This document shows, in pieces, positions 25,811 to 36,325 of a stretch of 36,325 bases of DNA. The stretch comes from Acidimicrobiia bacterium (GTDB taxonomy: Bacteria > Actinomycetota > Acidimicrobiia > Acidimicrobiales > Bin134). Below the pieces are notes generated by a model. It saw only the letters and a list, made by a program, of their open reading frames with translations. It made no database searches and was not told the origin of the DNA. The number at the start of each line of letters is the position of its first letter. Within the stretch, counting starts at the first letter, position 1. The stretch is taken from positions 1 to 36,325 of the forward strand of contig JAJEDQ010000019.1 of assembly GCA_022821445.1 (NCBI GenBank), given 5' to 3'. A program made the position numbers and the translations under genes.

Positions 25811-26337
25811 CTACCAAGAGGCATCCAGATCAATCTCCAGTTGGACGAGTTCCACTGCGCCGTCGGTGGCAAGTTGGCCGATCACTGAGAATCTGGGAAC
25901 GAGCATGCCTACCGCAATGGGAATCCGGTAGTCAGCACGACCGGGAAGGAGCTCTGGTAAATCATCAAGCGACACCGCAAATTGCTCGACGACGCGCAGC
26001 AATTCAAGTGATTGGAATCGGTGGTGATCCGGCTGTCAGTCAACGCCCTCCGAGCAGCCGGCAGCGATTCAAGCTGCTCGGCCTCGCGCATGGTCCGCTG
26101 GGCCTGCTGGCCCGACTGGCGCAACTCGGCTTTGAGTGCTTCGGCGGTGTCATAGGGGGTGGTCCGCCGCTTCTTCTCAGCGACGGCCTCGGCCAAGAAC
26201 CCGTCCAATTGATTGCGGGCCCGCCCAATCAGGCGCAGCCGCAGGTCCAGAGAAGCATCGTCCAATCCGGCCACGTCTACTGCATCAACGCGCACACCGG
26301 TCTTCGCATTTCCCCTGGTCAAAGTCCCAGATTCCAT
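25811..26337 (-). pseudogene. Frameshifted copy of the small divergent gene (collapsed cassette)
   Basis: From ATG 26337 the first ~75 codons match, with a few substitutions, the intact small gene at 27634-27876 (shared segments LDLRLRLIG, EKKRRTTPYDTA, ELRQSG). After about base 26040 the frame becomes cysteine-rich and unlikely (NHLNCCASSS). A different minus frame ending at 25811 reads plausibly (LLRVVEQFAVSLDDLPELLP and onward to EIDLDASW) and is blocked upstream by a TGA at 26036-26038. A single indel between ~26040 and 26000 would join them. I infer a broken gene of unknown function. Confidence 0.5.
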
Positions 26338-26530
26338 GCCACTAGTCTATTGAAGCCAGTGACAACTTCTCTGTGGCTCACATCCAGGCCTGTATCTGCT
26401 ACACAATGTCGTCATCACTTTGCGATCTTTCGAGACAAATCGAGCTGCGGTCAGGTAGATGGACGACTTCCTCGTAGACCGGGACCCCACTACGTGGTCG
26501 GCACCGGCAGGGTTTCCGTCATCGACAGCA
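26110..26530. repeat. Direct repeat, copy 1 (about 420 bp)
   Basis: Bases 26110-26530 closely match 27649-28069 in the same orientation, offset about 1,539 bp, with scattered substitutions. The repeat spans the start of a minus-strand small gene, the intervening divergent promoter region (for example ATCCAGGCCTGTATCTGCTA in both), and the first ~24 codons of the methylase gene. It shows that two copies of this cassette once existed. Confidence 0.85.
26459..26530 (+). pseudogene. Remnant: first ~24 codons of a second methylase gene
   Basis: ATG 26459 begins DDFLVDRDPTTWSAPAGFPSS after Met, nearly identical to the N-terminus of the methylase at 28003 (DNFLVDRDPTTWSAPSGFPSS). Homology stops after that, and the frame ends at a TGA seven codons later. 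The rest of the gene is missing, and the next sequence is the 5' end of a helicase gene copy. Confidence 0.75.
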
Positions 26531-27633: not shown

Positions 27634-27876
27634 CTAATGGCCCAATGGGCCCGACTGGCGCAGTTCAGTCGTCAGTGTGTTGGCCGTGTCATAGGGGGTG
27701 GTCCGCCGCTTTTTCTCAGCGACGACCTCAGCCAAGAACCCGTCCAGGTGGTTGCATGCCTGCCCAATCAGGCGCAGCCGCAAGTCCAGGGAAACGTCAT
27801 CCAACCCGGCCACGTCTACCGTATCGACGCGCACACAGGCCTTCGCATTTCCCCTGGTCAAAGCCCCAGATTCCAT
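27634..27876 (-). CDS. Small hypothetical protein, first gene of the operon, divergent from the methylase
   Basis: An 80-residue protein. The N-terminus MESGALTRGNAK is followed by VRVDTVDVAGLDD and helical LDLRLRLIG, with a basic EKKRRTT segment. Two copies of its 5' half exist in the window, this intact one and the broken one at 25811-26337, so it travels with the methylase cassette. The copy here may itself be shortened: homology with the other copy ends just after ELRQSG, six codons before the stop. Function unknown. The 126-bp spacer to the methylase ATG is conserved in both copies and probably holds divergent promoters. Confidence 0.5.
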   Translation of the reverse strand: MESGALTRGNAKACVRVDTVDVAGLDDVSLDLRLRLIGQACNHLDGFLAEVVAEKKRRTTPYDTANTLTTELRQSGPLGH

Positions 27877-28069
27877 GCCACAAGTCTACTGACACCAGTG
27901 ACAACATCTCTGTGGCTCACATCCAGGCCTGTATCTGCTACACAATGTCGTCATTACATTGCGAGCACTTGAGACGTTTCGGGCAGTGGCAAGGCCTGGT
28001 AGATGGACAACTTCCTCGTAGACCGGGATCCAACGACCTGGTCGGCACCATCGGGATTTCCGTCATCAC
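27649..28069. repeat. Direct repeat, copy 2 (about 420 bp)
   Basis: Partner of 26110-26530. It covers the 5' half of the small minus-strand gene, the divergent promoter region and the start of the methylase gene. Conserved blocks in the non-coding spacer include CTCTGTGGCTCACATCCAGG and CTACACAATGTCGTCAT. Conservation of the spacer suggests regulatory content or recent common origin. Confidence 0.85.
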
Positions 28070-31000
28070 TGACACCGGCAGGGGTGTTTGTTCAAGGTGC
28101 TCCCAGCGGGTTGGAGGTGACGCTGGTTCGAGCGTCTAGTAAGCCCAGGGCAGCGGAACTGCGTGATGGGTGGTCGAAGCGGCGGGCCGGGCGGGCCAGC
28201 CCGGTGCTGCTCGTGGCGTTCTATCCCACTGCTGAAGGTCAGCGGGTTTCCTTGTGCGGCCCGGTGGGGGAGCCGCCCGTGGTGCACCGCGACCTCGAAG
28301 TGTCGCAGGCCGAGCGCCTGTCTGAGGTTGCGTTGAGCGAGCCCAGCCACCACGCCGCCACCCGGTTCCTGTTGGCGGCCATGCCCGAGCTGGAGTCGCC
28401 CTTCCCCGGGCTCCGCAACGTGGGCCTGTTGGCCACCCAAGAGCTAAGGGCCGGCGTACCCGATCGAACAGACTGGCCGACCGCCAGCCACAAGTCGCTG
28501 GCGCTTTTGGGGCGTCGGGGCCGACGACTGGTAGAGGGCTTGGGCTTTCACATCGAGACGCTGGCCACCAACGCCTCCGTGCTCACTATTGACGGCCGCA
28601 ATCATGCCGTGGCCGTGTTCTGCGACGAGGACGAGCCCTTCGAGGCGCCGTCGAGCCGGTTCGACAGCACCTCCCCGGTGTCGAGGGCTCTGGCTCTGGC
28701 CGACCAGCACCGGGTCGACTGGGTGATTCTAACCCGGTCGTCGGAGATCCGCCTCTACGCCGCCCGCCCCGACACCGGGGTGGGTCGCAAGGGTCGGGCC
28801 GAGACCTTCGTGGAGCTGAACCTGTCGCTGGTTCCCGACGAGTTGGCCGGCTACCTGCACCTGCTGTTCTCAGCCGATGCGCTGGCCGACAACGGCACTC
28901 TCGATCAGATTCTCGAGCACTCGGCCGATTTCGTCGCCGAGTTGGCCGTGCGACTGTGCGAGCGGGTGTACCACCAGACGGTGCCGGCGCTGGCCAAAGC
29001 GGTGGCAGCCCGGCTGTCCCCTGGTCGACACGGAGACGACTTGGGCGAGGGCGATCTGGCCGACGCCTATGAGCAGGTCATGGTGATTCTGTTCCGGCTG
29101 CTGTTCGTGGCCTATGCCGAGGACAAGGACCTGTTGCCCTACCGCACCAACGGGCGCTACGCCGACCACTCGCTCTCGCACATCGCCCGGCTGCTGGCCG
29201 ATGATCGCCGTTTGGGCCGCGCCGACTATGACGAGCGGGCCACCGACCTGTGGGACGACGTGAACCAGCTTTGGGATGCGGTCAACCACGGCAATGCCGA
29301 CTGGGGCGTGCCCGCCTACAACGGCGGCTTGTTCTCCGCCGATCCCGAGGTGAGCCCTTCGGGAGCGGCCATCGCCGACATCAGCCTCACCAATGCTGAG
29401 TTCGGTCCCGCTCTCTCCGCGGTGCTGGTGGACCAGAGTCCCGAGGGGGTGGGACCGGTGGACTTCAGGTCTCTTTCAGTGCGGGAGTTCGGCACCATCT
29501 ACGAGGGCCTGTTGGAGTCGAAGCTGTCCGTGGCCCAAGACGACCTCGCCATCAAGGCCATCAAGGGCAAAGAGCAGTACGTGCCCGCGGCCGGAGACGA
29601 CGAAGCAGAGGTGGAGGCCGGCGCGGTGTATTTCCACAACCGCTCAGGGGTGCGCAAGGCCACCGGCTCCTACTTCACAAAGCCTTTCGCCGTCGAGCAC
29701 CTGCTCGACAACGCATTGGAGCCCGCCCTCGACGACCACATTTCCCGACTCGACCAACTGCGAGAGCAGGGCGACGAAGCCGCGGTGGCCGAAGCGTTCT
29801 TCGACTTCCGCTGCGCCGACATCGCCATGGGCTCGGCCCACTTCCTGGTGGCCGCCGTCGACCGGATCGAGGCCCGTCTGTCGGCTTGGCTCACCCTTCA
29901 CCCCGTCGCCGCAGTGACCGCAGAACTCAACCGCCTGCGCACCACCGCCCTCGAAGCCCTGGGCGATCTGGCCGACGGGGTGCCGATCGAATCCGGCTCC
30001 CTGCTTCGTCGCCAAGTGGCCCGCCACTGCGTCTACGGCGTGGACAAGAACCGAGTAGCCGTCGAACTCGCCCGCCTAGCCATCTGGGTCCACACCTTCG
30101 TCCCCGGCCTGCCCCTCTCATTCCTCGACCACAACCTCGTCCAAGGCGACAGCCTGACTGGGGTTGGGACTCTCGACGAAGTGGTCGCTGCATTCGAGCC
30201 CGATGCCGATCCCCTGGCCCCGAGCCTGTTCCGCAGTCAGATTGAAGATCTGCTGTCTGTCGCTGAGTACGCGCTGCGCCGCTTGGCCCGCACTTCTGAT
30301 GCCAGCAAACGCGAGATCGACGAAGCCCGCGATGCCCATCGCGAAGCTCAAGCCGCAGTAGCGGGAGCAAAAGCCCTGTTTGACGTGATAACCGCCTATC
30401 GGGCCAAGAAGTGTTCACTGCCCGAGAACTTCGACCCTTCTGTGTTTCAGCGAATAGCCCACACCAGTGCAGCGGCAGAGGCGGTTGACATCCTTCAGCC
30501 CGTCCACTTTCCCGCCGCGTTTCCAGAGGTGTTTCTGCGAGCTCGCCCCGGCTTCGACTGTTTGATTGGCAACCCTCCGTGGGAGCAGGTGGTCGTACAA
30601 GAACACGTGTGGTGGGGTATCCATTTGCCGGGTATCAGGAGCCTATCGATCAAGCAGATGAACAACGCCATTGCCCGATTTCGTCGAGCCAGGCCTGATC
30701 TGGAGTCAGATTTTGAGCTGGAACTGGAGCGAGCAGAGGAGATGCGAACGGTCTTGCGCGCTGCCTATCCGGGTCTGGGATCAGGCCGGACCGATTACTA
30801 CCAAGCCTTTGCTTGGGCGAATCTGAGTTTGGCCTGCCAAGGAGGAAGAATCGGGCTGGTGCTGCCCCATACCGCGGTGAATGCCGACGGCATGGGCAAA
30901 TGGCGCACCGAGATCGTTGGCGCTCCAGATGTCGGCGAAGTCACGCGGGGGGGGGGGGGGGGCGGGCCCCGCCCGATGCGGTTGTCGGTGGCGACGGTCA

Positions 31001-31641
31001 TCAACCACAAGGGATGGGTGTTCGAAGGAGTCCACAATTCCTACACGGTGGCGTTGGTGGCAGTCACCCGGTGTTTTCCGCGGCTACCTGCCTCAACACC
31101 AAACAGTGGGCATTCGATGGAGTGGACGGCCGCTACACCGTCTCCCTCATCGCCGTCTACAAGGTCAACCCCCGAAGCGAGCCTCGGGGGTGGCTTTGAG
31201 GGCGACCCCGACGAGCCGCATGTAGCCATCTATCCGGGGCCAGCGAGTTCATTAGCTCAGTTTCACGAGCTTGTAGACGGCAAGCCCGAATCGGTGCGAG
31301 TGTCGGAGTTCGTCGGCTGGTCTACCAGTGCGTCGTTTCCGCAGCTTCCCACCCGGTCGGCAATTCGGGTATGGCGCAAGATGAAGCAGCATCCTCGTCT
31401 TGACGAGCCGAGCCGAGCCGAGCCGAGCCGAGCCGAGCCGAGCCGAGCCGAGCCGAGCCGAGCCGAGCCGAGCAATTCTACCGGATGTGGCGGGTCAGAC
31501 CCTTGCAAGGGGATCTCAACGCTACGACCGACAAGCCCCGGTTCATCCTGGACGGTGGAGAGTCCGCCCGCACCGGGAGCTCGACGCTACAGCCGACAAG
31601 CACAAATTCATCCTCGACGAGGGCAGAGCAGCCATGAGTGA
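28003..31641 (+). CDS. Eco57I-like N6-adenine DNA methylase, frame-interrupted (OFF state)
   Basis: The open frame is 1212 residues. Residues 1-~540 are a large N-terminal region typical of type IIG/BREX/DISARM-like methylases. SGVRKATGSYFTKPFAVEHL (~548-567) is the pre-SAM motif. CADIAMGSAHFLVAA (~604) is SAM motif I. The catalytic motif is IGNPPWEQ near 855. After residue ~980 the frame crosses a G16 tract (RGGGGGG) and later a (AGCCG)13 tract read as EPSRA repeats, then runs into an unrelated proline/serine-rich tail and stops at 31641. The genuine C-terminal continuation lies in another frame (31400-32383). As written the protein would have a methylase core but no proper target-recognition end. 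Confidence 0.82.
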   Translation: MDNFLVDRDPTTWSAPSGFPSSLTPAGVFVQGAPSGLEVTLVRASSKPRAAELRDGWSKRRAGRASPVLLVAFYPTAEGQRVSLCGPVGEPPVVHRDLEVSQAERLSEVALSEPSHHAATRFLLAAMPELESPFPGLRNVGLLATQELRAGVPDRTDWPTASHKSLALLGRRGRRLVEGLGFHIETLATNASVLTIDGRNHAVAVFCDEDEPFEAPSSRFDSTSPVSRALALADQHRVDWVILTRSSEIRLYAARPDTGVGRKGRAETFVELNLSLVPDELAGYLHLLFSADALADNGTLDQILEHSADFVAELAVRLCERVYHQTVPALAKAVAARLSPGRHGDDLGEGDLADAYEQVMVILFRLLFVAYAEDKDLLPYRTNGRYADHSLSHIARLLADDRRLGRADYDERATDLWDDVNQLWDAVNHGNADWGVPAYNGGLFSADPEVSPSGAAIADISLTNAEFGPALSAVLVDQSPEGVGPVDFRSLSVREFGTIYEGLLESKLSVAQDDLAIKAIKGKEQYVPAAGDDEAEVEAGAVYFHNRSGVRKATGSYFTKPFAVEHLLDNALEPALDDHISRLDQLREQGDEAAVAEAFFDFRCADIAMGSAHFLVAAVDRIEARLSAWLTLHPVAAVTAELNRLRTTALEALGDLADGVPIESGSLLRRQVARHCVYGVDKNRVAVELARLAIWVHTFVPGLPLSFLDHNLVQGDSLTGVGTLDEVVAAFEPDADPLAPSLFRSQIEDLLSVAEYALRRLARTSDASKREIDEARDAHREAQAAVAGAKALFDVITAYRAKKCSLPENFDPSVFQRIAHTSAAAEAVDILQPVHFPAAFPEVFLRARPGFDCLIGNPPWEQVVVQEHVWWGIHLPGIRSLSIKQMNNAIARFRRARPDLESDFELELERAEEMRTVLRAAYPGLGSGRTDYYQAFAWANLSLACQGGRIGLVLPHTAVNADGMGKWRTEIVGAPDVGEVTRGGGGGGPRPMRLSVATVINHKGWVFEGVHNSYTVALVAVTRCFPRLPASTPNSGHSMEWTAATPSPSSPSTRSTPEASLGGGFEGDPDEPHVAIYPGPASSLAQFHELVDGKPESVRVSEFVGWSTSASFPQLPTRSAIRVWRKMKQHPRLDEPSRAEPSRAEPSRAEPSRAEPSNSTGCGGSDPCKGISTLRPTSPGSSWTVESPPAPGARRYSRQAQIHPRRGQSSHE
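30947..30962. repeat. G16 homopolymer inside the methylase gene
   Basis: Sixteen consecutive G residues, followed at once by CGGGCCCCGCCC, which can fold back as a GC hairpin. The tract encodes a poly-glycine run between the conserved GEVT and the NHKGWVF motif. Long G tracts are classical slipped-strand sites in phase-variable genes, and they are also a known sequencing and assembly hazard. Confidence 0.9.
30997..31160 (+). repeat. Two diverged copies of one methylase motif in different frames (A1, A2)
   Basis: A1 (31000-31068, main frame) encodes INHKGWVFEGVHNSYTVALV and on. A2 (31092-31160, third frame) encodes LNTKQWAFDGVDGRYTVSLI and on. The two are homologous over 23 codons (W-F-GV-YTV-L-AV), 92 bp apart. 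A2 would read on correctly into the downstream main frame if the C5 run at 31169-31173 were C4 (KVNPEASLGGG). The arrangement suggests that an allele-like segment was inserted upstream of A2. Confidence 0.75.
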
Positions 31642-32383
31642 CGGGCACCGCAGGTGGCCTGTGTACAAAGGTGCCTCGTTCGACTTGTGGAATCCTGACA
31701 CCGGTGCTTACTACGCCTCAGTCGATGCTGAGGAGATCACCCATCACCTCCAGCAGAAGCGACTGCGGCAGCACCGAACATCCAAGTCGCCGTTCGCGGA
31801 GTTCTCGGGCGAACACATTGAAGACCCGCAAACCCTGCCGTGTCTGAGGCCACGTATTGCATTTCGCGACATAACCAATAGCACCAATACCCGAACGGTG
31901 GTAACTGCCCTTGTGCCTGGCGAGGTTGTCATAACCAATCAAGGGCCATACTTGCTGTGGCCGAAGGGCGACGTGCGAGATCAGGCATTCCTCCTTGGCG
32001 CGCTCTCGTCAATGATTCTGGACTGGTACGCCCGTCGAGTAGTTGAGCTGCATTTGAATTTCCACATCCTCAATAGCTTTCCTATCCCCGACCCTGGCGA
32101 GGGACACCCAGTCCGGGACCGTGTAGTCGTGATCGCCGGGCGCCTCGCTGCGGTGGATGAGCGGTTTGTGGAGTGGGCGGCGGAGGTGGGGGTGCCGGTG
32201 GGGTCGGCCAATGACGAGGCGATAAAGCAAGACCTCATCTGCGAGCTCGACGCCTGCGTCGCTCACCTCTACGGCCTCGACGAAGATGACTTGGCCGTGG
32301 TCTATGACACCTTCAGCGAAACCGTCGACTACTCCGACCGCCACGCCGCCGTCCTCGCCCACTTCAGAAGGCTCGCTGAGTGA
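31400..32383 (+). CDS. C-terminal (target-recognition) part of the methylase in a shifted frame
   Basis: The open frame begins at TTG 31400 within the repeat tract; the conserved part starts at WRVRPHRELDATADKHKF (31556), and an internal ATG lies at 31634. WPVYKGASFDLWNPDTG, EFSGEHIEDP, RIAFRDITNSTNTRT and LNSFPIP are typical of the C-terminal specificity region of Eco57I/PglX-like methylases, and NSFPIP is the usual motif near its end. It is therefore the missing end of the gene that starts at 28003. If expressed alone it would lack the catalytic core. It ends with TGA 32381-32383, convergent with the PIN gene 11 bp away. Confidence 0.8.
   Translation: MTSRAEPSRAEPSRAEPSRAEPSRAILPDVAGQTLARGSQRYDRQAPVHPGRWRVRPHRELDATADKHKFILDEGRAAMSDGHRRWPVYKGASFDLWNPDTGAYYASVDAEEITHHLQQKRLRQHRTSKSPFAEFSGEHIEDPQTLPCLRPRIAFRDITNSTNTRTVVTALVPGEVVITNQGPYLLWPKGDVRDQAFLLGALSSMILDWYARRVVELHLNFHILNSFPIPDPGEGHPVRDRVVVIAGRLAAVDERFVEWAAEVGVPVGSANDEAIKQDLICELDACVAHLYGLDEDDLAVVYDTFSETVDYSDRHAAVLAHFRRLAE
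31406..31470. repeat. (AGCCG)13 pentanucleotide tract inside the methylase gene
   Basis: Thirteen perfect AGCCG units, flanked by partial units (CG before, AGC after). The unit length is not a multiple of three, so each gain or loss of a unit changes the frame. With 13 units the incoming frame leads to an early stop at 31641. With 14 (or 11) units it would join the frame of the 31400-32383 C-terminal segment. Confidence 0.95.
31488..31621 (+). repeat. Two diverged copies of a second methylase motif in tandem (B1, B2)
   Basis: B1 (31488-31556, third frame) encodes WRVRPLQGDLNATTDKPRFI and on. B2 (31556-31621, second frame) encodes WRVRPHRELDATADKHKFIL and on. They abut directly, are alignable over about 22 codons, and differ at many bases, so they come from two diverged alleles. 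Only B2 is in frame with the C-terminal region. B1 follows the AGCCG tract just as A1 follows the G tract. Confidence 0.8.
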
Positions 32384-32394
32384 GCGGCGCTCAA

Positions 32395-32829
32395 CTACTC
32401 CTTTCGGCTGTCCAGCGGGGACATACCCAGTTTGCGCAGATCCCGCCGTTTCCAGGGCCCGGGCTTGTTCAGGTGCTTGTCTCCCGCCCACACCACGCCC
32501 CCGTGGGCCATCGCTGTGGCCGCAGCATGAGCATCAGCCCAAGGGATGCGGCTTGTGACCACCAGCCTTGCGGCGCTGCGGGTCACTTCCAAAGTGGGTG
32601 CTTCGACTTGGGCGCTTGCGCAGAAGAAGTCCCAGATGCTGTCCGCAGTCGCGAATCCTCTGCGGCGGGCCAATGTGTAGTGGACCTCACCCAGATTGAT
32701 ACTGCAGACGATGATGGAAACCGGCTCTCCGAGCAATCCCTCCAGTTCCTTCACGATCGCGGGTTCCCCGTTCGCGTAGCGCACGATCGGCCATGCGTCG
32801 AGGACGACAGGCGGACGATTCGATTTCAG
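32395..32829 (-). CDS. PIN-domain toxin, VapC-like
   Basis: A predicted metal-dependent RNase. The first conserved aspartate is in PPVVLDAWPIV, then the NLGEV glutamate, and late acidic positions WADAHAA and WAGDKHLN. The conventional GTG at 32784 would cut off the first aspartate. I therefore extend to CTG 32829, which overlaps the antitoxin stop (CTGA, like the usual ATGA), giving about 144 residues. That start is inferred and no ATG or GTG is available in frame. It is encoded opposite to and between the methylase and helicase genes. Confidence 0.7.
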   Translation of the reverse strand: MKSNRPPVVLDAWPIVRYANGEPAIVKELEGLLGEPVSIIVCSINLGEVHYTLARRRGFATADSIWDFFCASAQVEAPTLEVTRSAARLVVTSRIPWADAHAAATAMAHGGVVWAGDKHLNKPGPWKRRDLRKLGMSPLDSRKE

Positions 32830-33131
32830 GAATCCGCCTCTTCGCCGTCGGGCAAGAAGTACGACGATCCGTCTTCGCGGAAGACCCGCATTTTGATAAT
32901 CCCGGCGCGCCCTAGGTCAACCAGGGTGTTGGGGTATATCTCCCTCAGGGCTGCCCGTTCCTCGAGGTACGCAGACGTGATGTCGTCGCCTGAGCCGATG
33001 TTCTCCTCGCAGAATTTCCTGAACTCGGCGATTGCAGCCAGTTTTTCCTCTAGAGGCCGAAGATGGGGCGGCACTGGTTCATTTACAGCGGCATTTCCCT
33101 GCTCTACGTCCACGGGAGCCATCTCTTCCAC
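32826..33131 (-). CDS. Probable antitoxin partner of the PIN toxin
   Basis: A 101-residue acidic protein starting MEEMAPVDVEQ (second ATG at 33122). It has a helical centre (EEKLAAIAEFRKFCEENIG) and a C-terminal beta-rich part ending SSYFLPDGEEADS. I do not recognise a DNA-binding fold such as AbrB or RHH with confidence. Its role is inferred from its place immediately upstream of, and overlapping, the PIN gene. It is divergent from the helicase gene. Confidence 0.6.
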   Translation of the reverse strand: MEEMAPVDVEQGNAAVNEPVPPHLRPLEEKLAAIAEFRKFCEENIGSGDDITSAYLEERAALREIYPNTLVDLGRAGIIKMRVFREDGSSYFLPDGEEADS

Positions 33132-33200: not shown

Positions 33201-36200
33201 ATGACCGCGGTTGAGAAGCCGGAGTTGGCCGTCAACCGGGGCCAGGACACGGTGGCGGGGGCGCTGAACGGGTTTATTTCCCATGCTGCAACTGGGTTTG
33301 TGGGCGGGGCATGCTTGGACGTAGCCACTGCCTATTTCAACGTGGGCGGGTACTCGCTGCTGGCCGATTCGCTGGATCAGGTCACTGGCGTTCGGCTGTT
33401 ACTGGGAGCAGAGCCGACCCCGCCGGAGAGCCGTCGGCGGGCGCTGCGGACTGAATCGGCCAATCCGCAACGGGCGATCCGGGCTCGGCTGCGCCAGGCC
33501 CTTGAGGACCACGAGCAGAACCTTGTGGTTGAGCGAGACCACTTGGGGTTCACGTTCGAGGTTGATGCCTCCACTCGCCGGCTGGTGGAGTGGCTGCGCT
33601 CGGAGAATGTCCAAGTGCGCCGCTTGGAAGGACAATTCTTGCACGGCAAGGCCTTCTTGGTAGGGGACCGCTCCCACGGGGTGGTGGCCGGGTCGTCCAA
33701 CTTCACCTATGCGGGGTTGGCCACCAACTTGGAGCTGAATCTAGGCAACTACTCGCCCCATGTGGTGGGCCAGGTACGCGACTGGTTCGACGAGCTGTGG
33801 GCCGAAGCCCAGGAATACGACCTGGCCTCGCTGTTCGAGGCTCGGTTTGAGCCACACTCCCCTCAGCTCGTGTATCTGCGGATGCTGTGGGAGTTCTACG
33901 GCGAGGAATTGGAGGCTGAGGCCGCTGCTCAGGGTGCGCCGCAGATCCACCTCACCAATTTCCAGTCCGATGGGCTGTGGCGGGCCCGGCGCATCTTGGA
34001 TGAGCGCAACGGGGTCCTCATTGCCGACGAGGTCGGCTTGGGCAAGACGTTCTTGGCCGGAGAGCTGATTCGGGAGGCGGTGCAAGATCGCCGCCAGCGG
34101 GTGTTGGTGATCACCCCGGCCACGCTGCGCGACGGGCCGTGGCGGGCATTTGTTCATGAGCACCTGTTGGCGGTGGAGCTTGTGTCCTACGAGGAGCTGA
34201 TGGCCGACAATCGTCTAAACCCCGAGCACACAACTGCCAGCAAGCTGAGAGCCGACATCAACGAATACGCCATGGTGGTGATCGACGAGGCCCACAATCT
34301 CCGCAACCCCGGCACCCAGCGGGCCCACGCGCTGCGCCAGCTTTTGGCCGGTTCGCCGCCCAAGGAGCTGGTGATGCTCACCGCCACCCCGGTGAACAAC
34401 AGCTTGTGGGACTTGTATCACCTGCTGGGCTACTTCCTGCGCAACGACGCTGTATTTGCCGATGCTGGCATTCGCTCTCTGCGCGACCACTTCGCCAAAG
34501 CGATTGCTCTCAACCCCGACGACCTCACCCCCGAGCATTTGTTCGACGTGCTGGACGCGGTGGCGGTCCGCCGAACCAGGTCGTTTGTCAAGCGCTTCTA
34601 CCCCAACGACACCATCAAGGTCGGCGGGCAGGAACAGCAGATCGTCTTCCCCACTCCCCGGGTCCACAAGGTGGACTACAACCTCGATGAGGTGATGCCC
34701 GGTTTCTTCGACCGGTTCGCCCACGCGCTCGATCCCGACGCCAGCGTCGAAGATCCCGGCGTGCTCACCATGGCCCGCTATTCGCCGTCGCAGTTTCGCT
34801 TGGACCGAGTAGAGGATGCTTACGAGAAACAGCTCGCCGGGCTGTTGCGTTCCGGATTGCTGAAGCGGTTCGAGTCTTCGCCCTATGCCTTTGCTGAGAC
34901 CTGCGAGAGGATGGCCAAGAGCCACGACGCCTTTCTGTCGCTACTGGACAACGGCCGGGTGGCCACTGGCGAAGCTTTGGCCGACTGGATCGCTACGGAC
35001 TCCGACGAGATGGACGAAGACCAGGTCGACACCTTCCTAGGAGGCATCGTCGGGGTGTCCGATGACGCCGCCGAGTACGACCTCGAACATCTCCGAGGGT
35101 ACGTAGACAGAGATCGACACCTGCTGAGGTCGTTCGCCGCCGGGGCCCGCACCGTCACCCACCCCGACGATCCCAACCTGGCCGCGTTGGTCGAGGAGCT
35201 GGCCCAGATCGCCGCAGAGGCCGCCGCGGAGGGGATCGGTCCAGACGATGTGCGCGACCGGCGCAAGGTGTTGATCTTCAGCTATTACGCCGACACCGTC
35301 GACTGGGTTTTCGAGCATCTGGATACCACGGTTGAAACCGACGAGCGTCTGGCTCCCTATCGGGGCCGCATCGCCTCGCTGGCTGGCAACTCCGGGTTGG
35401 GAAGCAAGGAGCGAGTGCTGTGGGGGTTCGCCCCAAAAACCACCGACGCCCCCGAGGGTGCCGACGACGACCGGTTCGACATCGTGGTGGCCACCGATGT
35501 GCTGGCCGAGGGGGTGAACCTCCAGCAGGCCCGTCACATCATCAACTACGACCTGCCCTGGAACCCGATGCGGCTAGTGCAGCGCCACGGTCGCATCGAC
35601 CGCATCGGCTCGCACCACACTGAGGTGTTCCTGCGCTGCGTATTCCCCGACGATCGCCTCGACGACCTGCTCGGTCTTGAAGAGCGACTCCACAGGAAGA
35701 TCGCCCAGGCCGCCGCCAGCATCGGGGTTGGTGAGGTGCTGCCCGACCAGGCTGCCCAGGTCGAAATCAACTTCACTGAGACCAAAGAGGAAATCGACCG
35801 TCTCCGCAACGAGGACGCCGAGTTGTTCGAACGAGGCGGCACGGCCCGAGGCGCACTGTCAGGCGAGGAGTTCCGCCAAGAACTGCGCCAAGCCCTTGAA
35901 GACTCCGACCTGGCCCGCCAGATCAAGTCCCTCCCTTGGGGCTCAGGCTCAGGCATGGCCGTGGCAAGCTCCGATGGGCGCCCCGGCTACATATTCTGCG
36001 CCCGAGTAGGCGACCACAGCAAACCCCTATTCCGTTTTGTCGAAACCGGCTCCGACACCGATAGCCCCGTGGTCGACGAAACCCTGGCCTGCCTCCACAA
36101 GGCCCGCCCCCCAGATGGGTTCGGCACCGACCGCCAACTAGACGATGCCACCATCCAAGGCGCCTTTACCGCCTGGGAAACAGCAAGAGACGACATTGTG

Positions 36201-36325
36201 GCTCAGTGGAACGTCATGTCCGACAAAGCCAACCTCGAACCCAAAATCCCACCCCGCCTCCGCCGCGCCGCCGACATCCTCCGAGATCACCCACCCCCCG
36301 AGCTCACCCAAGAAGACCTCGACCG
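33201..36325 (+). CDS. PLD-domain plus SNF2-family helicase (C-terminus beyond window)
   Basis: The frame is open for 1041 codons from ATG 33201 to the window end. Residues ~20-210 form a phospholipase-D-like domain with one HKD-type motif (HGKAFLVGD near 148, then AGSSNFTYAG). A SNF2 ATPase follows: motif I ADEVGLGKTFLAGEL (~273), DEAH box VIDEAHNLRN (~359), motif III LTATPVNNS (~394), and C-terminal motifs DVLAEGVNLQQARH (~767) and QRHGRIDRIG (~794). Such fusions occur in defence loci beside methylases; DISARM class 1 uses a SNF2 helicase (DrmD) and an adenine methylase (DrmMI). GGAGGTGGC precedes the ATG. Confidence 0.88.
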   Translation, partial: MTAVEKPELAVNRGQDTVAGALNGFISHAATGFVGGACLDVATAYFNVGGYSLLADSLDQVTGVRLLLGAEPTPPESRRRALRTESANPQRAIRARLRQALEDHEQNLVVERDHLGFTFEVDASTRRLVEWLRSENVQVRRLEGQFLHGKAFLVGDRSHGVVAGSSNFTYAGLATNLELNLGNYSPHVVGQVRDWFDELWAEAQEYDLASLFEARFEPHSPQLVYLRMLWEFYGEELEAEAAAQGAPQIHLTNFQSDGLWRARRILDERNGVLIADEVGLGKTFLAGELIREAVQDRRQRVLVITPATLRDGPWRAFVHEHLLAVELVSYEELMADNRLNPEHTTASKLRADINEYAMVVIDEAHNLRNPGTQRAHALRQLLAGSPPKELVMLTATPVNNSLWDLYHLLGYFLRNDAVFADAGIRSLRDHFAKAIALNPDDLTPEHLFDVLDAVAVRRTRSFVKRFYPNDTIKVGGQEQQIVFPTPRVHKVDYNLDEVMPGFFDRFAHALDPDASVEDPGVLTMARYSPSQFRLDRVEDAYEKQLAGLLRSGLLKRFESSPYAFAETCERMAKSHDAFLSLLDNGRVATGEALADWIATDSDEMDEDQVDTFLGGIVGVSDDAAEYDLEHLRGYVDRDRHLLRSFAAGARTVTHPDDPNLAALVEELAQIAAEAAAEGIGPDDVRDRRKVLIFSYYADTVDWVFEHLDTTVETDERLAPYRGRIASLAGNSGLGSKERVLWGFAPKTTDAPEGADDDRFDIVVATDVLAEGVNLQQARHIINYDLPWNPMRLVQRHGRIDRIGSHHTEVFLRCVFPDDRLDDLLGLEERLHRKIAQAAASIGVGEVLPDQAAQVEINFTETKEEIDRLRNEDAELFERGGTARGALSGEEFRQELRQALEDSDLARQIKSLPWGSGSGMAVASSDGRPGYIFCARVGDHSKPLFRFVETGSDTDSPVVDETLACLHKARPPDGFGTDRQLDDATIQGAFTAWETARDDIVAQWNVMSDKANLEPKIPPRLRRAADILRDHPPPELTQEDLD

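Follow-up and report, generated by a model that had tools for sequence, protein, structure and literature searches.

Repeat tracts that probably select among alternative coding cassettes in a type IIG-like methylase gene of an Acidimicrobiia bacterium

A stretch of 36,325 nucleotides from an Acidimicrobiia bacterium (contig JAJEDQ010000019.1; hereafter the window) contains a gene that is probably a phase-variable type IIG-like methylase, in which two repeat tracts choose among alternative coding cassettes rather than only breaking the gene (Table 1). Switching is suggested by comparison with relatives, nearly all of them metagenome assemblies, and the variants may also differ in DNA target. 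In the proposed mechanism, slipped-strand mispairing would alter the unit number of both tract A (G16) and tract B (AGCCG). Depending on the phase in which tract A is left, translation would lead into copy 1 (frame X), into copy 2 (frame X+2), or into neither, as the third frame stops. On the copy 1 route translation would continue in frame X, and on the copy 2 route a putative +1 frameshift at CTT TGA, similar to that of release factor 2, would restore frame X. The frame leaving tract B would then lead into one of several homologous cassettes placed in successive frames, and the C-part would be made either as a fusion with the last cassette or by a fresh start at an overlapping ATG or GTG. 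The predicted product is a family of enzymes with two variable segments, one closing the methylase domain and one immediately preceding the probable target-recognition region, and these variants would most likely differ in activity or target.

Table 1. Coordinates and predicted roles of features of the methylase locus in the window.
Feature	Position	Strand	Description
N-part ORF as assembled	28003..31641	+	Type IIG-like methylase (Eco57I family), copy 1, and linker; no cassette at the end
Tract A, G16	30947..30962	+	Length predicted to select copy 1, copy 2, or neither; inside ORF 28003-31641
Copy 1 (VATVINHKGWVFEGVHNSYTVALVA)	30988..31062	+	Main frame X
Copy 2 (..TCLNTKQWAFDGVDGRYTVSLIAV..)	31080..31169	+	Frame X+2; 86 nt past copy 1
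GGGGGTGGCTTTGA	31186..31199	+	Putative release-factor-2-like +1 frameshift signal closing the copy-2 frame; a +1 shift leads to frame X
Tract B	31404..31473	+	(CGAGC)14 = (AGCCG)13
Cassette alpha (VRPLQGDLNATTDKPRFILDGGESA..)	31494..31577	+	Read with 12 or 15 units
Cassette gamma (VRPHRELDATADKHKFILDEG..)	31562..31645	+	68 nt past alpha, next frame; fusion to the C-part at 14 or 11 units
C-part (MSDGHRRWPVYKGASF..HFRRLAE)	31634..32383	+	Probable target-recognition region
PIN-domain gene and small upstream ORF	32395-33131	-	Toxin-antitoxin-like; between methylase and helicase
PLD and SNF2 helicase gene	33201..36325	+	Downstream of the methylase; open at the contig end

The gene encodes an amino-methyltransferase core of the Eco57I type with the NPPW motif (46.3 bits for the Eco57I family against a cut-off of 25.3). 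The PADLOC model REase_MTase_IIG matches both parts of the gene, with E-values of 9.8e-203 for the N-part ORF, where residues 52-1024 are covered, and 2.3e-61 for the ORF past the tract (31400-32383), which corresponds to the end of the model (positions 1097-1372 of 1378). For the N-terminal 366 amino acids no Pfam family was detected at an E-value of 0.01; the long PADLOC model is the one named REase_MTase_IIG. Matches of TaqI_C to the C-terminal region are weak (E-values of 0.21, in one of eight members, and 0.37), and TIGR02987 matches ORF 31400-32383 with an E-value of 6.1e-7 but only 28.6 bits against a cut-off of 353.5. The DISARM models DrmMI (2.1e-69) and DrmD (9.9e-45) match as well, yet neither is the best match, and none of the six neighbor genes scanned in three relatives (L109, L095, and L014) is DrmA or DrmB; the window itself ends within the helicase gene. 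BREX PglX was cited in a preliminary description of this DNA among phase-variable methylases with comparable logic; assignment of the gene to BREX-2 PglX was rejected, as NF033451 gives 14.9 bits against a cut-off of 400. A single-sequence search revealed no relatives with solved structures, and in a profile search against such structures the methylase end matched RM.BsaXI weakly (E-value 0.0031). No relative was found on viral contigs. Direct repeats at 26109-26523 and 27648-28067 (88% and 85%), about 1.54 kb apart, contain the methylase upstream region and first codons in duplicate, and the first copy looks like a remnant.

An exact-repeat scan of the window (units of 1-9 bases) revealed only two long tracts, tract B and G16, both within the same ORF. 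AGCCG is repeated exactly 13 times at 31406-31470, in agreement with the preliminary description, within a perfect array of 70 bases that can equally be read as 14 units of CGAGC; this array scores 140, the top of 21 repeat rows, and its length is far beyond chance. A 20-base piece of the tract has no second occurrence in the 3.4-Mb assembly of the same organism (completeness 92.7%). With G16 and 13 units, as assembled, the reading includes copy 1 and no cassette and ends after 1212 amino acids at the stop codon 31639-31641. The frame of ORF 31400-32383 is joined with 14 or 11 units, giving copy 1, gamma, and the C-part in a protein of 1461 or 1456 amino acids, respectively, and a third outcome, copy 1 followed by alpha, results from 12 or 15 units. 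At tract A, G17 or G14 opens the copy-2 route, and G15 or G18 leads to a stop after 1073-1074 amino acids. The earlier frame arithmetic, an early stop at 13 units and full length at 14 or 11, therefore holds, and the frame in which the C-terminal region of this type IIG-like methylase is read is indeed set by tract B. The earlier inventory was right about tract B, but G16, copy 2, and the two cassettes lying in different frames past tract B were overlooked. A single switch between early stop and full length is thus too narrow a description, given the second tract upstream and the conserved variant segments in other frames.

A contig scan with the methylase core yielded 37 loci. Whole-genome searches at an E-value of 0.001 gave matches for 19 of the family's 22 genomes, 14 of which have a close one (E < 1e-200), and at an E-value of 1e-90 matches were obtained for 34 of the 397 genomes in the order; 16 further regions were added from these searches. 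The comparison set comprised 48 sequences (the window, L010-L040, and L095-L110). The distant L041-L046 (26-31% identity) were excluded following the repeat scan, and exclusion of the duplicate L109 and the paralog L110 left 46 sequences for tract counts. Relatives of the PLD/SNF2 helicase were detected within the DNA retrieved downstream of the gene for 37 of the 48 sequences, a count in which distances differ and some contigs end earlier. PIN relatives also occur downstream of the methylase core in L037, L010, and L029.

The repeats cluster at site A, just past the core, and at site B, starting 297-639 nt past the core; a subset of sequences also has a G tract at site C, located about 550 nt past the VYKG motif. 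The window and 35 relatives (36 of 46) have a tract at A or B, 25 of them at A and 34 at B; one of the ten sequences without them, L022, ends at site A. The unit length among relatives is 1, 2, 4, 5, 8, or 10 bases and is almost never a multiple of three. The tract sites are conserved while the units turn over: the units G, C, GA, CT, ACGA, GGCAC, AACAG, GCCGA, and four decamers are found at site A, whereas site B is filled by C, G, CT/TC, GA, GTCC, CCGA, CAGC, ATCC, CCAA, CGGT, CGGA, CGAGC, GCCGA, CCGAG, CCGAA, CCGAC, CCCAG, or one octamer. In the 46 sequences, the variable region contains 84 tracts in 60,369 nt, two of them with a unit that is a multiple of three, and the rest of the loci contains 45 tracts in 468,418 nt, 25 of them with such a unit. 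The comparison of related genomes that had been proposed at the outset revealed unequal unit numbers among close relatives. L014, L015, and L016, which are 96.6-98.7% identical over the shared stretch, have 11.5, 18.5, and 14.5 units of CT at site B, G11, G22, and G12 at site C, and G9, G6, and G11 at site A, respectively. The tract at site C (G10-G24), which is absent from the window, lies within the C-part of L014-L017, L026, L027, L029, L095, L098, and L100, the end of which it would alter.

Past site A, two homologous segments, copy 1 (..INHKGWVFEGVHNSYTVALVA) and copy 2 (..CLNTKQWAFDGVDGRYTVALVA), are found in all 26 loci with this layout. Their spacing is 86 nt in each of the 26, which places copy 2 in another frame than copy 1, and the downstream region shares the frame of copy 1. 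A tract of at least 8 bases is present at A in 24 of these loci, L015 has G6, and L021 has none; L022 and L030 end before the copies. In a search by pattern, the 20 sequences lacking this layout gave a single segment (11 sequences) or no segment (nine sequences, two of them too short), never two. As assembled, tract A directs the reading into copy 1 in nine loci, into copy 2 in five, and into neither in 12 (n = 26). L021 carries a stop inside copy 2, as expected if copy 2 serves only the switching gene, a single case.

Copy 2 closes at a stop codon within the motif GG[GA]GGTGGC[TC]TTGA in 24 of 26 loci; L021 has a shortened form, and L100 retains tract A though the TGA of the signal is lost. 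This motif occurs 22 times in 1,057,172 nt, every time at the end of copy 2. Codons around it vary synonymously. In the copy-1 frame the motif reads Gly-Gly-Gly-Phe/Leu-Glu in uncommon codons: TTT accounts for 15% of Phe and GGT for 14% of Gly codons in the core, and at the motif GGT is used in 22 of 23 sites and TTT or CTT in 22 of 23 (17 and 5, respectively). In the signal of release factor 2 genes, three bases separate the G-run from CUU UGA. The Shine-Dalgarno-like G-run, short spacer, and CUU UGA in the methylase genes have the same type of layout, which is suggestive of +1 frameshifting.

The TGA past copy 2 might instead just terminate translation, so that the copy-2 phases yield a truncated methylase, a reading that we consider possible though somewhat doubtful. 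Simultaneous constraint in both frames could fix GGGGGTGGC, dual coding with a plain stop might suffice to keep the 14 bases constant, and the host's own prfB is a single ORF with no +1 frameshift, giving no sign that +1 frameshifting is used by this organism. In addition, CTT is replaced by CCT in five of 23 sites and in L021, the site is lost in L100, and the context is mostly UGAG, in contrast to the C that usually follows the stop in release factor 2. On the other hand, the layout matches the release factor 2 signal, and the +1 shift at the window site, CTT TGA, lands exactly in frame X. The sole variant of the G-run, GGAGG in L024, keeps the Shine-Dalgarno pairing, and the same change is described for release factor 2 genes, where CUU_U shows strong conservation and GG_AGG at times replaces GG_GGG (PMC5009743). 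The two kinds of site thus share a G-rich Shine-Dalgarno-like run and CUU before UGA, but differ in that the methylase site follows an alternative copy and would rejoin a frame set by a tract. Reinitiation in frame X past the TGA of copy 2 was rejected for the window, where no ATG, GTG, or TTG occurs within the next 14 codons. A rare Val codon, GTA, at 31222-31225 (7% of Val codons; 22 of 26 rows by eye) gives rise to a third-frame TAG stop right after the frameshift-like site, as if it were frame-specific punctuation.

Past tract B, the cassettes follow the pattern RP..(QGDLN / AELH / RELD)AT.D+..F..D.G. Two or three of them (five in L098) are found in each of the 29 tract-B sequences readable by pattern, and at least two in all 32 readable ones, three of which (L019, L105, and L107) were read by eye; the remaining L018 and L024 end before the cassettes. 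The patterns missed the cassettes of these three sequences and the third cassette of L021 (by eye two, two, two, and three, respectively), which are not part of the spacing count; L015 and L016 are included in the spacing, 26-locus, and phase counts. The spacings between cassettes are 65 (25 times), 68 (14 times), 74 (12 times), and 44 nt (once), and all 52 equal 2 modulo 3, so that consecutive cassettes occupy consecutive frames. As assembled, tract B leads into gamma in 12 sequences, alpha in six, beta in five, and none in six (n = 29). A few cassettes are disrupted in the very frame that they occupy (alpha of L015 and beta of L010 and L028), and L015 also has a frame-X stop ahead of tract B. 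In L098, at 694-963 nt past the core end, alpha, beta, and three near-identical gammas follow each other at 65 nt with cycling frames, apparently a recent amplification in which the phase rule was kept.

In the window, the ATG of the C-part at 31634 overlaps both the TGA of the alpha frame (31635-31637) and that of the assembled frame (31639-31641). The C-part is fused at 14 or 11 units, as the preliminary description had it for the full-length protein, but this does not extend to the whole family, since in 16 of 29 sequences (one being the duplicate L109) no cassette frame continues into the C-part. In 14 of these 16, ATG or GTG is located 18 nt before VYKG, and it overlaps a stop codon (ATGA or GTGA) in 12. 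The other 13 sequences have a cassette fused to the C-part, and nine of them have a start codon at position -27. A purine-rich stretch ahead of the C-part start was seen by eye in several sequences. Such an arrangement is suggestive of coupled reinitiation at the C-part start.

The cassettes cluster by class rather than by genome of origin: for 70 of 71 the closest counterpart from a different genome is of the same class, and for 62.5 of 71 when only bases outside the defining motif are used. Among eight aligned tract-free relatives, L108 is too diverged and the seven typable ones have one cassette each, which varies by species (QGD[LFM]N, RELN, AEFH, LEFS, and GDLH types). These observations bear on another explanation, that the staggered copies merely protect the frame, keeping a working enzyme in most phases at a high, low, or off level, with all variants equivalent in their job. 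Homology of the copies is in line with this explanation, and the overlapping starts and the frameshift-like site would each rescue expression. Nevertheless, the classes stay distinct over long divergence, and the single-cassette relatives differ by similar alternatives, and we regard frame protection as rather unlikely.

Selection on alternative segments, as the cassette mechanism would require, was analyzed in each frame, with the near copies L015, L016, and L109 and a few outgroups dropped from the conservation sets. In every class, own-frame variation peaks at third codon positions, with p = 3.5e-5 for copy 1, 2e-5 for copy 2, 4.4e-4 for alpha, 0.014 for beta, and 0.0076 for gamma, whereas the other two frames of every class have p >= 0.48. 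Third positions in the copies and cassettes are less variable than in single-frame controls (0.32-0.40 vs 0.58 differences per site), as predicted by overlapping constraint. Stop codons were compared with 500 synonymous shufflings of codons. Kinship among the sequences makes these comparisons look too significant, and it inflates the third-position contrasts as well. Among frames that are still needed, stops are absent from both frames of alpha (0/24 each), from the copy-2 frame of copy 1 (0/24), and from frame X of copy 2 (0/24), and they occur in 1/23 for the gamma frame of beta, with 12.9-21.4 expected. No depletion is observed in frames whose cassette has already been read (14/23 and 15/24, with 13.2 and 13.0 expected). 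Some frames not needed by the model are also stop-poor, namely gamma in the alpha frame (7/24 vs 16.3 expected) and both copy 1 and copy 2 in the third frame (3/24 each). Two control frames are mildly depleted, in the core (12/24 vs 16.4, P 0.038) and in the post region (9/22 vs 14.3, P 0.012), and the other two are near or above expectation (13/24 vs 14.6 and 17/22 vs 13.2).

Plain on/off phase variation of a methylase, with the extra copies being decaying tandem duplications, is very improbable in the light of these data, although on/off switching of methylases is well known (PMC3936762, PMC4889913), the window at 13 units has no cassette, and a few cassettes contain stops: every copy class shows codon-periodic conservation in its own frame, stops are depleted where the cassette model predicts, and the spacing is constantly 2 modulo 3. 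An assembly or binning artefact or a pseudogene is hardly credible, since the layout of tract B and cassettes recurs in about 30 genomes with purifying selection and also in very long contigs of 2.55 and 2.29 Mb (L028 and L039, both without tract A). In favor of an artefact, the sequences are metagenome contigs, site A of L027 contains a run of N, and five contigs (L018, L022, L024, L025, and L030) break off at or close to a tract site. Such breaks are also what long repeats, or repeats mixed in the population, would lead one to expect.

The closest precedents for selection of cassettes by repeat tracts are a Helicobacter pylori enzyme and pglX of Streptomyces. In H. pylori, the type IIG methylase JHP1272 / HP1353-HP1354 likewise has a pair of homopolymer tracts; on/off switching depends on the first, and the recognition site changes with the second (PMC3936762). 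In the available account of that enzyme an extra C-terminal domain is present or absent, whereas the family described here has homologous cassettes in successive frames, a frameshift-like site, overlapping starts, and units of one to ten bases. The preliminary description named no established case in this kind of actinobacterium; an actinobacterial example is in fact established, pglX of Streptomyces coelicolor (Pgl), a phage-defense methylase with a G tract of variable length (PMC4365076). It resembles the window gene as an actinobacterial defense methylase with a G tract and differs in being described there as on/off only, and the window gene falls far under the BREX-2 PglX cut-off. In C-terminal phase variation, reported for Helicobacter canadensis (PMC2823697) and Neisseria gonorrhoeae (PMC5320596), a tract deep in the gene similarly leads through three frames to different ends, sometimes with fusion to the next gene; those ends are not described, in the available parts of the two reports, as versions of one segment, whereas here the versions are conserved. 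In NgoAV hsdS1/hsdS2 of N. gonorrhoeae, a polyG tract shifts specificity via a frame change (PMC9577141), but this is a type I specificity subunit that is truncated or fused, and the accessible text of that report does not describe staggered cassettes. Judged by title or abstract of the matches listed, searches of open-access full text gave no earlier case of homologous cassettes in successive frames, which is weak evidence of absence.

The gene has a frame-shifting tract within the coding region, the length of which varies among near-identical sequences (L014, L015, and L016). We class it under SSR phase variation, as a variant; once tested, the cassette principle may merit a class of its own. 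In our judgement the case is evenly balanced for a new class of diversity-generating genes, in which hypermutable repeats select among tandem out-of-phase homologous segments, most tract lengths yield a designed variant, a +1 frameshift of the release factor 2 type and stop-start overlaps join the parts, and units are replaced freely while the frame logic is kept. The usual view of phase variation holds that one frame is good and two are dead, whereas here the other frames seem purposely written with alternative segments. If so, variable parts of an enzyme could be shuffled without recombination, and the DNA targets of a defense methylase could change in this way within a clone. It would also mean that a frameshift signal of the release factor 2 type is used outside prfB, and would be a strong bacterial example of overlapping reading frames under selection. 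Such genes are probably called broken by automated gene calling.

Runs of at least 12 G or C are found in 20 of 22 genomes of the same family, with up to 752 overlapping pattern matches (G018), and further switching genes may be hidden in the homopolymer-rich genomes of the same genus (for example, at G003:C27:33273-33384). Nine other G-tract loci were inspected, and eight of them have no methylase match. The ninth, in the same genome as the window (L124, G000:C200:10587-10599), is a G13 tract that interrupts a second methylase-like gene, with DPTVGSGAFLLAALDVLDPMY before the tract and the continuation in another frame, and this gene is likely another phase-variable methylase.
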